Source: Anaerolineae bacterium
GTDB lineage: Bacteria; Chloroflexota; Anaerolineae; UBA4142; SHND01
Direction: 5' to 3'
Assembly: GCA_020851635.1 (NCBI GenBank)
Contig: JADZCJ010000075.1
Coordinates: 1-32,710 of the forward strand
DNA: 32,710 nt
Position numbers and translations under genes: made by a program. Positions within the stretch are counted from its first letter, which is position 1. Every line of letters starts with the position of its first letter. Below, piece after piece: positions 24,160-29,552 of the stretch. The notes beneath the pieces were generated by a model. It was given only the letters and a program-made list of their open reading frames with translations. It searched no databases and had not been told where the DNA came from.

Positions 24160-27100
24160 TTACCGCCGCGGCATTTGACGCGCGAGCCAGTCCAGCACGT
24201 CGAGCAGGTGGTCACGCCATTGCTCATCAATCTCGGGTCCCGGCAGCCACATACGATCGCGCGAGGCGCGCACGCGCGGCGCAAACTTTATATTCAGCCG
24301 TTCCATCCGCGCGCTGTCCTCCTCTCGAAACCGCACTAAAATTCGCCCATCATCGAGCATCACCGTCGCCGCGTTCACCCGGGTCGCCGCCAGCTTGACG
24401 CGCAGCAAAAACAAGAGATTCGCAACCTGTTCCGGCAACGGACCGAACCGTTCTTGAAATTCGCGCACCACTTCTTCGACCTGCTTGTCTTCGTTCACGT
24501 CCGCTAGGCGCCGGTACAAGCGCAAACGCAGCGCGCTGTCAGCCACATAGTCTTCGGGAATCTGCGACACGAGCGGCAAATCAATCGCAGGCGCGTTCAA
24601 CATCCGCTGCGCCGGATTCACACCCATCTTGCCATTCTTGCGCTCCGGCTCTGCGTTCGCGCGCGCCTCTTGAATCGCGCCCGCCAGGAGCCGCGCGTAG
24701 AGGTCCAACCCAACCGCCGCGATATGCCCCGACTGCCGCGCGCCCAGAATCTCGCCCGCGCCCCGAATTTCCAGATCGCGCATCGCCACCTGAAAACCCG
24801 CACCCAATTCCGTCGCCTCGGCAATCGTTTGCAACCGCGAGCGCGCTTCGTCCGACAAATTCGACCGTTTGTCATACATAAAGTACGCATACGCCCGCGC
24901 CGCGCTCCGCCCTACGCGCCCGCGCAGTTGATACAATTGCGCCAGCCCGAACTTGTCGGCATTATTGATAATGATCGTATTGGCGTTCGGAATATCAATC
25001 CCGCTCTCGATAATGGTCGTGCACACCAGCACATCATACTTCCCCGCGGCAAATTCGCCCATCACCAATTCGAGCCGGTCCTCATGCATCTGCCCGTGTC
25101 CGATGCTGATGCGCGCTTCAGGCACAAGTTTTCGCAGTTGGTCTGCCACAATTCCGATGCCCTGCACGCGGTTATGCACAAAAAACACCTGTCCGCCGCG
25201 GTCCAGTTCGCGCAAAATCGCATCGCGCACCAATCCGTCTTCATAGGTCGCCACATACGTCCGAATCGGCAAGCGCTCGTCCGGCGGTGTCTCGATCGTG
25301 CTCATGTCGCGCGCGCCGCTGAGCGAAAGATATAACGTGCGCGGAATCGGCGTCGCCGTCAGCGTCAACACATCAACGTGCGCGCGCAGCTGCTTGAGCC
25401 GTTCCTTGTGCTGAACCCCAAAGCGCTGCTCCTCGTCCACAATCATCAAGCCCAGGTCCTTAAAGACTACATCCTTGGACAGAATGCGATGTGTGCCGAT
25501 TACGATATCAATCGAACCCTCGCCCAGCTTGGTCACAATCTCATCCGCTTCCTTGTCCGAACGGAAACGTGACAACATTTCCACGGTGACGGGGAACGGC
25601 GCGAGCCGTTCTTTGAACGTGTTGAAATGCTGCTGCGCCAGGACGGTCGTCGGCACCAAAATCGCCACCTGTTTGCCATCCATCACCGCTTTGAACGCCG
25701 CGCGCAGCGCCACTTCGGTTTTCCCATAACCCACGTCGCCGACCACCAGCCGGTCCATCGGACGCTTTTGCATCATATCCTGTTTGACCTGATCAATGAC
25801 CGTCAACTGGTCGGGCGTCTCGATATAAGGAAACGACGCCTCCAGTTCGTACTGCCATTGCGTGTCATCAGAAAACGCGTGACCGCTCACTATTTCGCGC
25901 GTCGCATACAGCTCCAACAACTCTCCGGCAATATCCGCGACCGCTTTTTTTGTGCGTTCTTTGACCTGCACCCATTCTGCCGTGCCCAAACGATGCAGCG
26001 TCGGTTTGTGTCCGCCGGGCGCTACATACCGGCTCAGGCGATCGAGCTGATGCACCGGCACATATAATTTGTCGCCTTGCGCATATTCCAGCCACAGGTA
26101 TTCGGTATCGGGTCCGCCCAAATCCAGTTTTGCAAAACCCTTGAAAACGCCAATCCCATGATCAATATGCACAACATAATCGCCCACGTCGAGGTCCGAG
26201 AAAAATGCTTCGGGCGATTGCGTGCGGGCATGCGTCGTCAAACGGCGCGGTTTCGGACGTGACCAGCCAAAGATCTCTGCATCCGTCAATAGAACGAGAC
26301 GGGAGACTGGAGATTCAACACCAGAGTTTCCGGTCTCCGGATTCGAGTCTCTGATCTCCAGTCTCCACCCTTCCGTCAGCGCGCCCTGCACCAGTTCAAT
26401 TTGTGCGGGTTCGGGTACGTGTGTAATCTCCGTCCTCGGCTTGAGAAAAAAACCGCGCTCGTGCAGCAAATCGGCAATGCGTTCCGCCTGCCGCGTCACC
26501 ACCACCGTGCGCGCCCCATCGCCGCGCTGTGCCATCATTCTTTCCACAACGCGTTTCACCTGACCCCCAAACCGTTCGCCGGGCACAAACGGCAGCGCGG
26601 GAACTTGATCCACGCCGCGATAATCAAACAAGATACGCGAATAACACAACATTTTGTCGCGGAGCTCCGCCCATGAAAAATAGGGTTTTGCCAGGTTGTG
26701 CGGAATCTCCCCGCGTGTTTCCAAGTCCTGGCGCACCTGCTCCGCCTGCTGCTCAAACTGCTCGGTCATGGCTTCCAGTTCTTGCCAATCGTCCGCCACC
26801 AGCAGCGCATTTTCGGGCAAATAATCCAACAACGCAGCTGACCTCTCTGTAAAATAAGGCAGGTAAAATTCAATGCCGCGGAACCGCTGTTTGTTTTCGA
26901 GCTGGTCAATATCCTGCCGAAAGCCATTTGCGGCCACAGGATGAAGGGTGGACATGTCCCAACCGCGCGCAATTTCCGCCACCTGCGGGGCGCGCGTGAT
27001 CTCGGCTTCGCTCGCGGGCGTAATCATCAACATTTCAATATTTCGCCCTGACCGTTGGGTCGCGGGATCAAATTCGCGCAGCGTCTCGACCTCATCGCCG

Positions 27101-27708
27101 ACCAATTCCACGCGTACCGGGCTTGTCCGAGAAGGCAGCCAGATATCCACAATCCCGCCGCGCCGCGAAAACAGCCCGGGCATATCCACTACCGCCGCGT
27201 GCTCGTACCCCAGCGCCGTCCACGCGGAAAACATGTTGCTCAGCGACAACGATTCCCCGCGTCGCAGCACAAACACCCCGCGTTGAAAATCTGCGCGCGG
27301 CGTTGTGCGCGTCATCAATGCGCGCATCGTCGTAATAACCGTCGGGTGAGCATTTCCCGCCTGCGCCGAGAGCGCAGAGAGCGCCGCCAACCGCAGCGCA
27401 ATCGTTTCTGACGCCCACGGCAGTCGCTCGTAAAGAAGCGGGTCAGGTTCGGCAAAGAAAAAAATGCGTTCCGGGTGCGCGCTCCACGAGGTCAGGTCCG
27501 CCCACAACTGTTTCGCCCGTTCCGTCCGCGCCGTCACAATCACAATCGGTACCGACCGCTTTTCCTGCAGCGTCGCCAAAACAAACGGGCGCGCGGCGTC
27601 CAGCACCTCCAGTGGTTCGGTGACAACACTCCCCGCATCGAGACGCGCCAACAACGCCCGAAATTCGGGCGTATCATCCAGTAAAGGCAAAATTCCAGCC
27701 AGATTCAT
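24160..27708 (-). CDS. mfd: Transcription-repair coupling factor Mfd
   Basis: The 1182-aa protein is full length for Mfd, which removes RNA polymerase stalled at lesions and recruits UvrA. The UvrB-like N-terminal part ([19 protein letters not shown]), the RNA-polymerase-interaction domain (about 500-570, [20 protein letters not shown]) and the RecG-like translocase are present. The translocase has Walker [17 protein letters not shown] (about 656), [12 protein letters not shown] (about 757), [11 protein letters not shown] and a TRG-like [16 protein letters not shown]. The C-terminal D7 domain ends in [20 protein letters not shown]. About residues 447-472 ([20 protein letters not shown]) are foreign-looking and encoded by a palindromic insert between GALTEG and [12 protein letters not shown]. 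This is a surface-loop position in domain 3, so function is probably kept. No clear ribosome site precedes ATG 27708. Confidence 0.95.
26302..26366. repeat. Palindromic element inserted in frame inside mfd
   Basis: GGAGACTGGAGAT (26302-26314) and ATCTCCAGTCTCC (26354-26366) are perfect 13-bp inverted repeats. Inside, CAGAG/CTCTG (26322-26326, 26349-26353) and CCGGTCTCCGG (26330-26340) form nested stems. The 65-bp block keeps the mfd frame open and encodes a hydrophilic insert. Confidence 0.8.
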
Positions 27709-27743: not shown

Positions 27744-27781
27744 GGCGAGGGAATGCCCCAGAGTCGCCGCATTCCCTCGCC
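27744..27781. terminator. Perfect 13-bp stem-loop after pth
   Basis: GGCGAGGGAATGC (27744-27756) pairs exactly with GCATTCCCTCGCC (27769-27781) around a 12-nt loop, overlapping the last base of the pth stop. No T-run follows on the minus strand, so it may act by RNA stability or as a processing site between pth and mfd rather than as a simple terminator. Confidence 0.55.
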
Positions 27782-28410
27782 TATCCGTTATATAAATTCA
27801 TCGCCTTGACAATCCCCTCACCCACCCAAACCCGCAGCGCCCCTTCCGCGCGCTTTAGCACATCATCCAACACACTCTGTTCCTCTTCCGAAAAATTTCC
27901 CAACACATGCCCCACATCTTGCTTGGGGTCCGGTCTCCCGATGCCCACACGCAAACGCGGAATATCCGAGCCGCCAAGCGTGTTTATGATTGATTCCATC
28001 CCGTGATGCCCGCCCGAACTCCCGTTCGCGCGCAGCCGCAGCTTGCCCAGGGGCAGGTCCAGGTCGTCATACACGACCATCACATTCGCGCGCCCCACGC
28101 GATAAAACGCGGCAAGTTTCCCCACCGCGCTCCCCGAAGCATTCATATACGTTTGTGGCTTGAGCAAAAGCACCCGTTCCCTGCCAAGCGTCACCTCAGC
28201 CAACTGCGCATTGAACCGCTGCCGGTTAAATCCGGTTCCCTCGGTCCGCGCCAGTTGATTCAAGACCATAAACCCCACATTGTGACGATTGCGCGCGTAT
28301 TTGAGACCGGGGTTGCCCAACCCCACAATCAATTTCATCGGCTTGTGCGAGGCCAGTACCGCATCACTGCGCCCCAGTTTGCGCGTCAACCATTTCGTAG
28401 AAATCGGCAT
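27781..28410 (-). CDS. pth: Peptidyl-tRNA hydrolase
   Basis: The gene encodes 209 aa from ATG 28410 or 185 aa from ATG 28338 (MKLIVGLGNPG), the usual family start. GGGGGG lies upstream of 28410 and the intervening residues are open, so a short extension is possible; the still longer open frame overlaps the microprotein gene and is unlikely. Pth frees tRNA from prematurely released peptidyl-tRNA. Conserved residues are present: Asn in GLGNPG, Tyr and His in YARNRHNVGF (catalytic His), the KPQTYMNASGSAV loop, VVYDDLDLPLG with the catalytic Asp, and GSSGGHHGMESI. It sits downstream of the microprotein gene and upstream of mfd in the same direction. Confidence 0.93.
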   Translation of the reverse strand: MPISTKWLTRKLGRSDAVLASHKPMKLIVGLGNPGLKYARNRHNVGFMVLNQLARTEGTGFNRQRFNAQLAEVTLGRERVLLLKPQTYMNASGSAVGKLAAFYRVGRANVMVVYDDLDLPLGKLRLRANGSSGGHHGMESIINTLGGSDIPRLRVGIGRPDPKQDVGHVLGNFSEEEQSVLDDVLKRAEGALRVWVGEGIVKAMNLYNG

Positions 28411-28448
28411 TACCGGATCCATCCCCCCTCGTCGCTTGAACGAGCGGG

Positions 28449-28589
28449 CTATAAATACCTTTTCAAAAAATACAAAATCCCCACCAACACAAACAACCCA
28501 ATCGCGTATTGGGCGCCGCGCCAAAACGCGTCAAACAAGTCAGGCATTGACGAGACGAACGAGTTGATGATTTCGTTAAAATCAGGCAT
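28449..28589 (-). CDS. 46-aa single-pass membrane microprotein
   Basis: This short ORF reads MPDFNEIINSFVSSMPDLFD, then AFWRGAQYAIG, LFVLVGILYFLKRYL and stop. An acidic amphipathic N-terminal half is followed by one hydrophobic helix and a positively charged end, the pattern of a membrane-bound small protein with its C-terminus inside. ATG 28589 lies 6 nt after the stop of the stalk-protein gene (28596), with GAGCGGGC in between as a possible ribosome site, so the two are probably co-expressed. It may be a partner or regulator of that membrane-anchored protein. I do not recognise a family. A chance ORF is possible, but the spacing, composition and clean helix favour a gene. Confidence 0.6.
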   Translation of the reverse strand: MPDFNEIINSFVSSMPDLFDAFWRGAQYAIGLFVLVGILYFLKRYL

Positions 28590-28595
28590 GCCCGC

Positions 28596-29348
28596 TCACA
28601 ACACCCGCCGCACAAAATACACAACGCCGACGAAAAAGAAAATGCCTGCCATGGCGACAATCCCAAACAAAAAGATACGCCCGATCGCCGTCGCAAAATC
28701 CTCTGCAGCTTGCAAGATCTGATCAAATTCTATACCGCCCAAGCTGCCGGAACCCGCTTCGGGGGTTCCTTCCGGCGCCGCCGGTGTCGCAGTCGGTTCG
28801 GGTGTGCCGCTTTCATCCGCCGGGGGCGTCGTCGGGAGGGGCGTGGGCACGGCGTTCTGAATTGGCGGCGCTTCGGTCTCTTCGGGAGTCGGACTGGGCA
28901 GGGTTTGATCGAGCGTCGGGGTTGGTGGCGCGGAATTTTGCACGAGAATATTCGTGACCATGGCTTCGCAATAGTTACCGGTCGGGTCCACCACGCGCAA
29001 ACGCAGGGTATACGATCCATCCGGAACAGCTGCGCTGTCCCAGACGCCCAGCTGACCATTCACAACTTGTTGCGGCGCTTGCCCCGCGAGGTCGCCCCAT
29101 GCTTCGGTTCCGGCGGGCGCAAATTCCAGCTTGTAATACTGAAAATCTGCGCCGAGCGATGCCGTTCCTTCGATTTGGACAATTCCAAAAACGGTCGTCC
29201 CACCCACCGGAGCGAGGATGGCGGCGTTCCCGCCGCTGCAATCACGCGCGTTGGGCGCAGCCCAAACAGGCAACAAGGTGATCGCCAGCAGCGCGGCAAC
29301 AAGCCACAAGACCGTCAAAGAACGTATTATTTTCAGTGTCACGCGCAT
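28596..29348 (-). CDS. Secreted Ig-like protein with Pro/Thr stalk and C-terminal membrane anchor
   Basis: The protein has 250 aa from ATG 29348, chosen for the CGGAG ribosome site 4-8 nt upstream; the frame opens further up but without support. A signal peptide (LTVLWLVAALLAITLLPVWAAP) is followed by an Ig-like domain, about residues 40-135, with an FGIVQIEGTA...YYKLEFAPAGTEAW...LGVWDSAAVPDGSYTLRLRV pattern as found at the C-terminus of some penicillin-binding proteins. A Pro/Thr/Glu-rich stalk follows (about 140-200), then a C-terminal helix (IFLFGIVAMAGIFFFVGVVYFV) ending RRVL. It is thus anchored in the cytoplasmic membrane and displays the Ig-like domain outside. Function is unknown. It is followed closely by the 46-aa membrane ORF. 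Confidence 0.8.
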   Translation of the reverse strand: MRVTLKIIRSLTVLWLVAALLAITLLPVWAAPNARDCSGGNAAILAPVGGTTVFGIVQIEGTASLGADFQYYKLEFAPAGTEAWGDLAGQAPQQVVNGQLGVWDSAAVPDGSYTLRLRVVDPTGNYCEAMVTNILVQNSAPPTPTLDQTLPSPTPEETEAPPIQNAVPTPLPTTPPADESGTPEPTATPAAPEGTPEAGSGSLGGIEFDQILQAAEDFATAIGRIFLFGIVAMAGIFFFVGVVYFVRRVL

Positions 29349-29463: not shown

Positions 29464-29537
29464 GGGCGAGTAGCTCAGCTGGTCAGAGCGCCTCGTTTAC
29501 ACCGAGGAGGTCGCGGGTTCGATCCCTGCCTCGCCCA
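29464..29537 (+). tRNA. tRNA-Val (anticodon TAC)
   Basis: The 74-nt cloverleaf is complete: acceptor GGGCGAG/CTCGCCC, D-arm GCTC/GAGC, anticodon arm CCTCG-TTTACAC-CGAGG with anticodon TAC (reads GTA/GTG codons), variable loop AGGTC, T-arm GCGGG-TTCGATC-CCTGC, discriminator A. CCA is not encoded. It has its own promoter and terminator, so it forms a single-gene transcription unit. Confidence 0.97.
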
Positions 29538-29552
29538 CTCTCTCTGCTCCAC

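Follow-up and report, generated by a model that had tools for sequence, protein, structure and literature searches.

We analysed a window of 32,710 nucleotides, the whole stretch of Anaerolineae DNA considered here, taken from an assembly of 5.8 Mb in 144 contigs. The following features lie at the locus:

28596..29348, minus strand: gene of the stalk protein, 250 aa (start picked from an orthologue alignment)
28599..28733, minus strand: 3' part of the stalk gene, its last 45 codons, homologous to the microprotein gene
28590..28595, minus strand: spacer GCGGGC, 6 nt, between the stalk stop and the microprotein ATG
28449..28589, minus strand: 46-aa membrane microprotein, a headless anchor, called from its ATG start, orthologues, codon statistics and AlphaFold2
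27781..28410, minus strand: pth, peptidyl-tRNA hydrolase, with a genus-conserved start (MPIST/MPVST) 38 nt past the microprotein stop
24160..27708, minus strand: mfd-like transcription-repair coupling factor, the next gene on the same strand, named by sequence reading and not by a family search

A divergent tRNA-Val gene (anticodon TAC, 29464-29538) lies upstream of the stalk gene.

The microprotein ORF occupies exactly 28449..28589 on the minus strand and encodes MPDFNEIINSFVSSMPDLFDAFWRGAQYAIGLFVLVGILYFLKRYL. A gene of 46 codons is missed by size cut-offs. The original prediction had placed a short ORF 6 nt after the stalk stop, and the window confirmed both its position and the spacer; no Shine-Dalgarno-like match was found by eye within these 6 nt. 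The AlphaFold2 model (mean pLDDT 85) consists of a helix at residues 4-14 and a helix at residues 16-45, the latter containing the membrane span, and the protein ends in a KR-Y-L tail. The model is consistent with the amphipathic N-terminus, single hydrophobic helix and basic tail that had been read from the sequence. Searched against Pfam and NCBIfam, the microprotein matched none of their families even with E values as high as 1 allowed, and the NCBIfam models of C-terminal sorting signals matched neither the microprotein nor the stalk protein.

The microprotein frame was found in all five other genomes of the genus that were examined, at full length, without internal stops and with 67-72% identity. 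The gene order stalk, microprotein, pth, mfd is common to 6/6 genomes. Pooled over the six genomes, pS was 0.67 and pN 0.20 (pN/pS 0.31). Pairwise pS values of 0.54-0.87 correspond to saturated or near-saturated synonymous sites, and pairwise dN/dS was 0.11-0.29 wherever dS was finite. Invariant sites at codon positions 1, 2 and 3 numbered 24/46, 32/46 and 7/46, and 21 residues are invariant across the genus. The microprotein is a protein-coding gene under purifying selection. A chance ORF was ruled out by the conservation and the codon-position pattern. The claim of a real, unlisted small membrane-protein gene beside the stalk gene is thus borne out by the conserved frame, gene order and low dN/dS; it was not refuted by the proposed test of frame loss in orthologous loci, all six frames being intact, and a search for low dN/dS gave the predicted outcome. 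Conserved spacing to the stalk gene held in part: the spacer is 5-6 nt in 5/6 genomes but 66 nt in the sixth (G005).

The partner had been described as an anchored Ig-like protein on a stalk, and the structural model agrees. It predicts a signal-like helix (residues 2-29), a seven-stranded Ig/Fn3-like sandwich (~42-136), a disordered Pro/Thr-rich stalk (~149-206) and a C-terminal membrane helix (208-249) ending in RRVL. Foldseek placed it near sandwiches of the Ig, Fn3 and related types. Two matches alone had E < 0.001, and query TM-scores were low; the model thus supports an Ig/Fn3 fold class and no specific family. Pfam Big_13 (PF19077) resembles the sandwich in a weak match at residues 95-129, but at 15.4 bits versus a cut-off of 27 the stalk protein is not a member by the Pfam rule. 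A sequence search of solved structures gave nothing better than E > 0.1. Two cysteines of the stalk protein, C37 and C127 (28866-29240), are kept together in 5/6 genus sequences and are absent from the Caldilineaceae homologues. They may form a genus-specific disulphide in the sandwich, a possibility raised by this pattern.

We compared the microprotein with the C-terminal 45 residues of its neighbour, the stalk protein. An ungapped local alignment of 44 residues scored 55 (BLOSUM62). Shuffle controls scored 22.6 ± 4.4 when the full sequence was shuffled and 27.1 ± 5.6 when shuffling was kept within hydrophobic blocks, with 1/2000 reaching 55. A profile of the six microproteins (A2) picked up the C-terminal ends of stalk proteins from other families at E values down to 7.8e-8, the next best matches likewise being stalk-family C-termini; some weaker matches were unrelated membrane proteins. 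For the reverse comparison, 23 anchors were chosen by stalk similarity alone. An earlier anchor profile, partly picked with the microprotein profile and hence biased, had given the microproteins 29-45 bits versus ~18 for the genus stalk ends, and this gap shrank when only stalk-picked loci were used. With the stalk-picked profile, five microproteins reached 23.6-30.4 bits, the sixth had 9.8 and the genus stalk ends had 15.6-25.1; block shuffles had means near 0 and maxima of 10.9 and 16.9, so that the sixth microprotein falls within the range of the 10.9 shuffle maximum. At the nucleotide level, the microprotein gene and the 3' stretch of the stalk gene were 42-47% identical in 6/6 genomes, versus 29-30% for codon shuffles.

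The two proteins have an anchor core in common, F-x2-G-x7-F-x3-G-x5-[KR], which corresponds to F22, G25, F33, G37 and K/R43 and is found in all six microproteins. Among 42 outgroup anchors of the class, the first Gly is kept in 42/42, the second Phe in 40/42, the second Gly in 39/42 and the basic residue in 42/42. The class-wide conserved sites of these 42 anchors fall on one face of the helix (period 90-100 degrees, p 0.02-0.04), the pattern that a surface for helix packing would show. The same test on the microprotein itself gave p 0.6, with six sequences only. Taken together, these comparisons show homology, at the level of sequence, between the microprotein and the C-terminal membrane anchor of the stalk protein itself, as well as the class-wide anchor. 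It is an anchor alone with its own ATG and is not joined to an Ig/Fn3-like ectodomain, so it is not a stalk protein. The "helper helix" of the original prediction stands as a membrane helix encoded next to the stalk gene; it must, however, be revised from an unrelated helper to a homologue of the stalk anchor, given the alignment and profiles.

The first core Phe of the anchor is replaced by Cys in 9/42 outgroup anchors ("AC..GA"; many other families, L045-L066), and this Cys might be a lipidation or disulphide site.

Where else do the stalk gene and the free-standing anchor occur? Relatives of the stalk gene were found in MAGs labelled Chloroflexota, Chloroflexi, Anaerolineae or Caldilineaceae. 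Stalk-like matches were present in 292/298 class genomes at E 1e-5, a count that must include other Ig-like proteins. Outside the genus, pth lies directly downstream of the stalk gene in 21 of the 24 best loci, which were picked by similarity, so this fraction is not a class-wide estimate. The pth-mfd linkage is also widespread in Anaerolineae. In the sister family, which belongs to the same taxonomic order, pth was located in nine genomes (L087-L095) and had no stalk gene upstream; one of these loci (L088) ends ~200 nt upstream of pth and cannot be judged. Where the flank is readable, the stalk-pth linkage was lost or moved. An Ig/Fn3-like stalk protein upstream of pth/mfd (27781-29348 in the window) is a widespread protein that no Pfam or NCBIfam family names.

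Outside this one genus, no free-standing anchor was found in ~390 other class genomes. Matches of the microprotein profile there sat within long frames or at the edges of contigs, and the best of them were stalk C-termini. A search for short hydrophobic ORFs between the stalk gene and pth at ~40 other loci gave one unconvincing 27-aa frame (L022). The small envelope module that had been proposed is not fixed: the stalk-pth pair is widespread in Anaerolineae and the microprotein was found in the one genus only.

The microprotein gene may have originated when the 3' end of a stalk gene was copied and the copy acquired a start codon. Matching codons of the two stretches lie 147 nt apart in the window, and nucleotide identity is above that of codon shuffles in all six genomes, both of which are predicted by a partial 3' duplication. 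In a FastTree anchor tree of 34 columns, which is not decisive, the microproteins and the genus stalk anchors formed separate clades that were not sisters: the stalk anchors were placed in a group (0.93) together with those of families f38 and f9, and the microproteins fell weakly elsewhere. A recent simple tandem duplication within the genus is thus not demonstrated, and the copy may instead go back to a duplication of greater age, to the loss of the head from a second stalk gene, or to transfer.

What might a stalk anchor do without its head? We put at about an even chance that this free-standing copy pairs with the stalk anchor as a microProtein-like partner. We suggest more tentatively that it is a membrane microProtein that regulates how the stalk protein assembles, by forming hetero-pairs through helix faces that are nearly identical. 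The 5-6-nt spacing in five genomes and the lack of an evident ribosome-binding site suggest that ribosomes re-initiate on the microprotein frame once past the stalk stop, which would fix the ratio of the two proteins; the 66-nt spacer in G005 indicates that this close coupling is not universal. By the positive-inside rule, the basic C-terminal ends of both anchors predict an N-out/C-in orientation, so the microprotein would insert like the stalk anchor with its basic residues in the cytoplasm. It would then pair with the stalk anchor through the common face G25/A29/F33/G37 and join the helix assembly without bringing an ectodomain. Such pairing may dilute, space or cap clusters of stalk proteins or stabilise the anchor, thereby setting their spacing, stoichiometry or stability, in the way that microProteins act within homotypic complexes.

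Pairing with the neighbour is not the only way to read a conserved, homologous anchor. The microprotein may have acquired a new role of its own, such as that of a small regulator acting on another membrane protein or on envelope stress, with the neighbour as its origin only and left unbound; likewise, a homotypic-pairing interface could have become specific to other partners. An independent role is favoured by the positions that are invariant in the microprotein outside the anchor core (P2, D3, N5, N9, P16, D17, Q27 and Y45) and by the failure of the microproteins to group with the genus stalk anchors in the tree. It accords less well with a gene order kept in 6/6 genomes, a 5-6-nt spacing in five and an unchanged anchor core, and we consider it unlikely, if a serious contender. 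Alternatively, the peptide itself may matter little, translation of the short ORF serving to pass ribosomes on to pth or the ORF merely spacing the operon. The microprotein stop does abut the pth start (0 nt) in 2/6 genomes, but 38-92 nt separate them in the other four, the amino-acid sequence is constrained (pN/pS 0.31) and carries a specific anchor core, and most of the class has the stalk gene followed by pth without any such ORF. A leader of this kind is therefore improbable.

The narrow distribution in one genus and the derivation from a larger gene would also suit a decaying remnant, an anchor fragment left by gene fission or duplication and now being lost. Decay is hard to reconcile with a frame that is full length and undamaged in six genomes despite pS of 0.54-0.87 and with dN/dS of about 0.1-0.3, and we hold it to be very improbable. 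Finally, ribosomes reading through the stalk stop codon could append the second anchor to the stalk protein, which would then have two membrane helices. The 6-nt spacer does keep the microprotein ORF in frame with the stalk gene in the window. However, the 5-nt spacer of G004 puts the ORF in a different frame, stalk genes end in TGA in three genomes and in TAA in the other three, without a context common to these stops, and the microprotein has its own conserved ATG in 6/6; we give readthrough next to no credence, the broken frame in G004 counting against it.

How does the free-standing anchor compare with known systems? Single-helix small proteins are a known and common kind in bacteria, mostly without a known partner. 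Small membrane proteins of the CydX/YohP type are, like the microprotein, under 50 aa, with one membrane helix, and overlooked by size cut-offs; CydX is part of an enzyme complex (PMC4325964, PMC7549839). The likeness is one of kind. CydX is not known to copy any part of its partner, whereas the microprotein resembles its neighbour's anchor. C-terminal sorting signals such as LPXTG and PEP-CTERM have, like the microprotein and the stalk end, a hydrophobic helix followed by basic C-terminal residues; unlike them, the microprotein follows no domain that could be sorted.

The microProteins of plants and animals (LITTLE ZIPPER, miP1a/b) are likewise small, single-domain and related to a larger multi-domain protein (PMC6003976, PMC5381583, PMC4807768), and the majority of those known go back to a duplication followed by truncation (PMC5381583). 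Like them, the microprotein carries only what could be a pairing region. Unlike them, it is bacterial, has a membrane helix in place of a soluble dimerisation domain, and apparently shares an operon with its large relative; two method or survey papers on microProteins make no mention of bacteria or transmembrane domains (among PMC6003976, PMC5381583 and PMC4807768). The microprotein thus fits the structural half of the microProtein definition, and its binding to the larger relative is putative.

In the open-access literature, we found no precedent for a recognisable copy of a neighbour's anchor as a small protein, and no paper joining Anaerolineae, peptidyl-tRNA hydrolase and Ig-like proteins. 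Because the microprotein copies its partner's anchor and adjoins its gene, a likely partner can be named from sequence alone, and the pairing reading makes a testable prediction, that the helices pair in a manner dependent on the two glycines. The finding also suggests a cheap general search, for short ORFs that share homology with the terminal membrane helix encoded by an adjacent gene. The analysis further brings to light an Ig/Fn3-like surface protein that is conserved in Anaerolineae, where its gene is linked to pth and mfd across the class.
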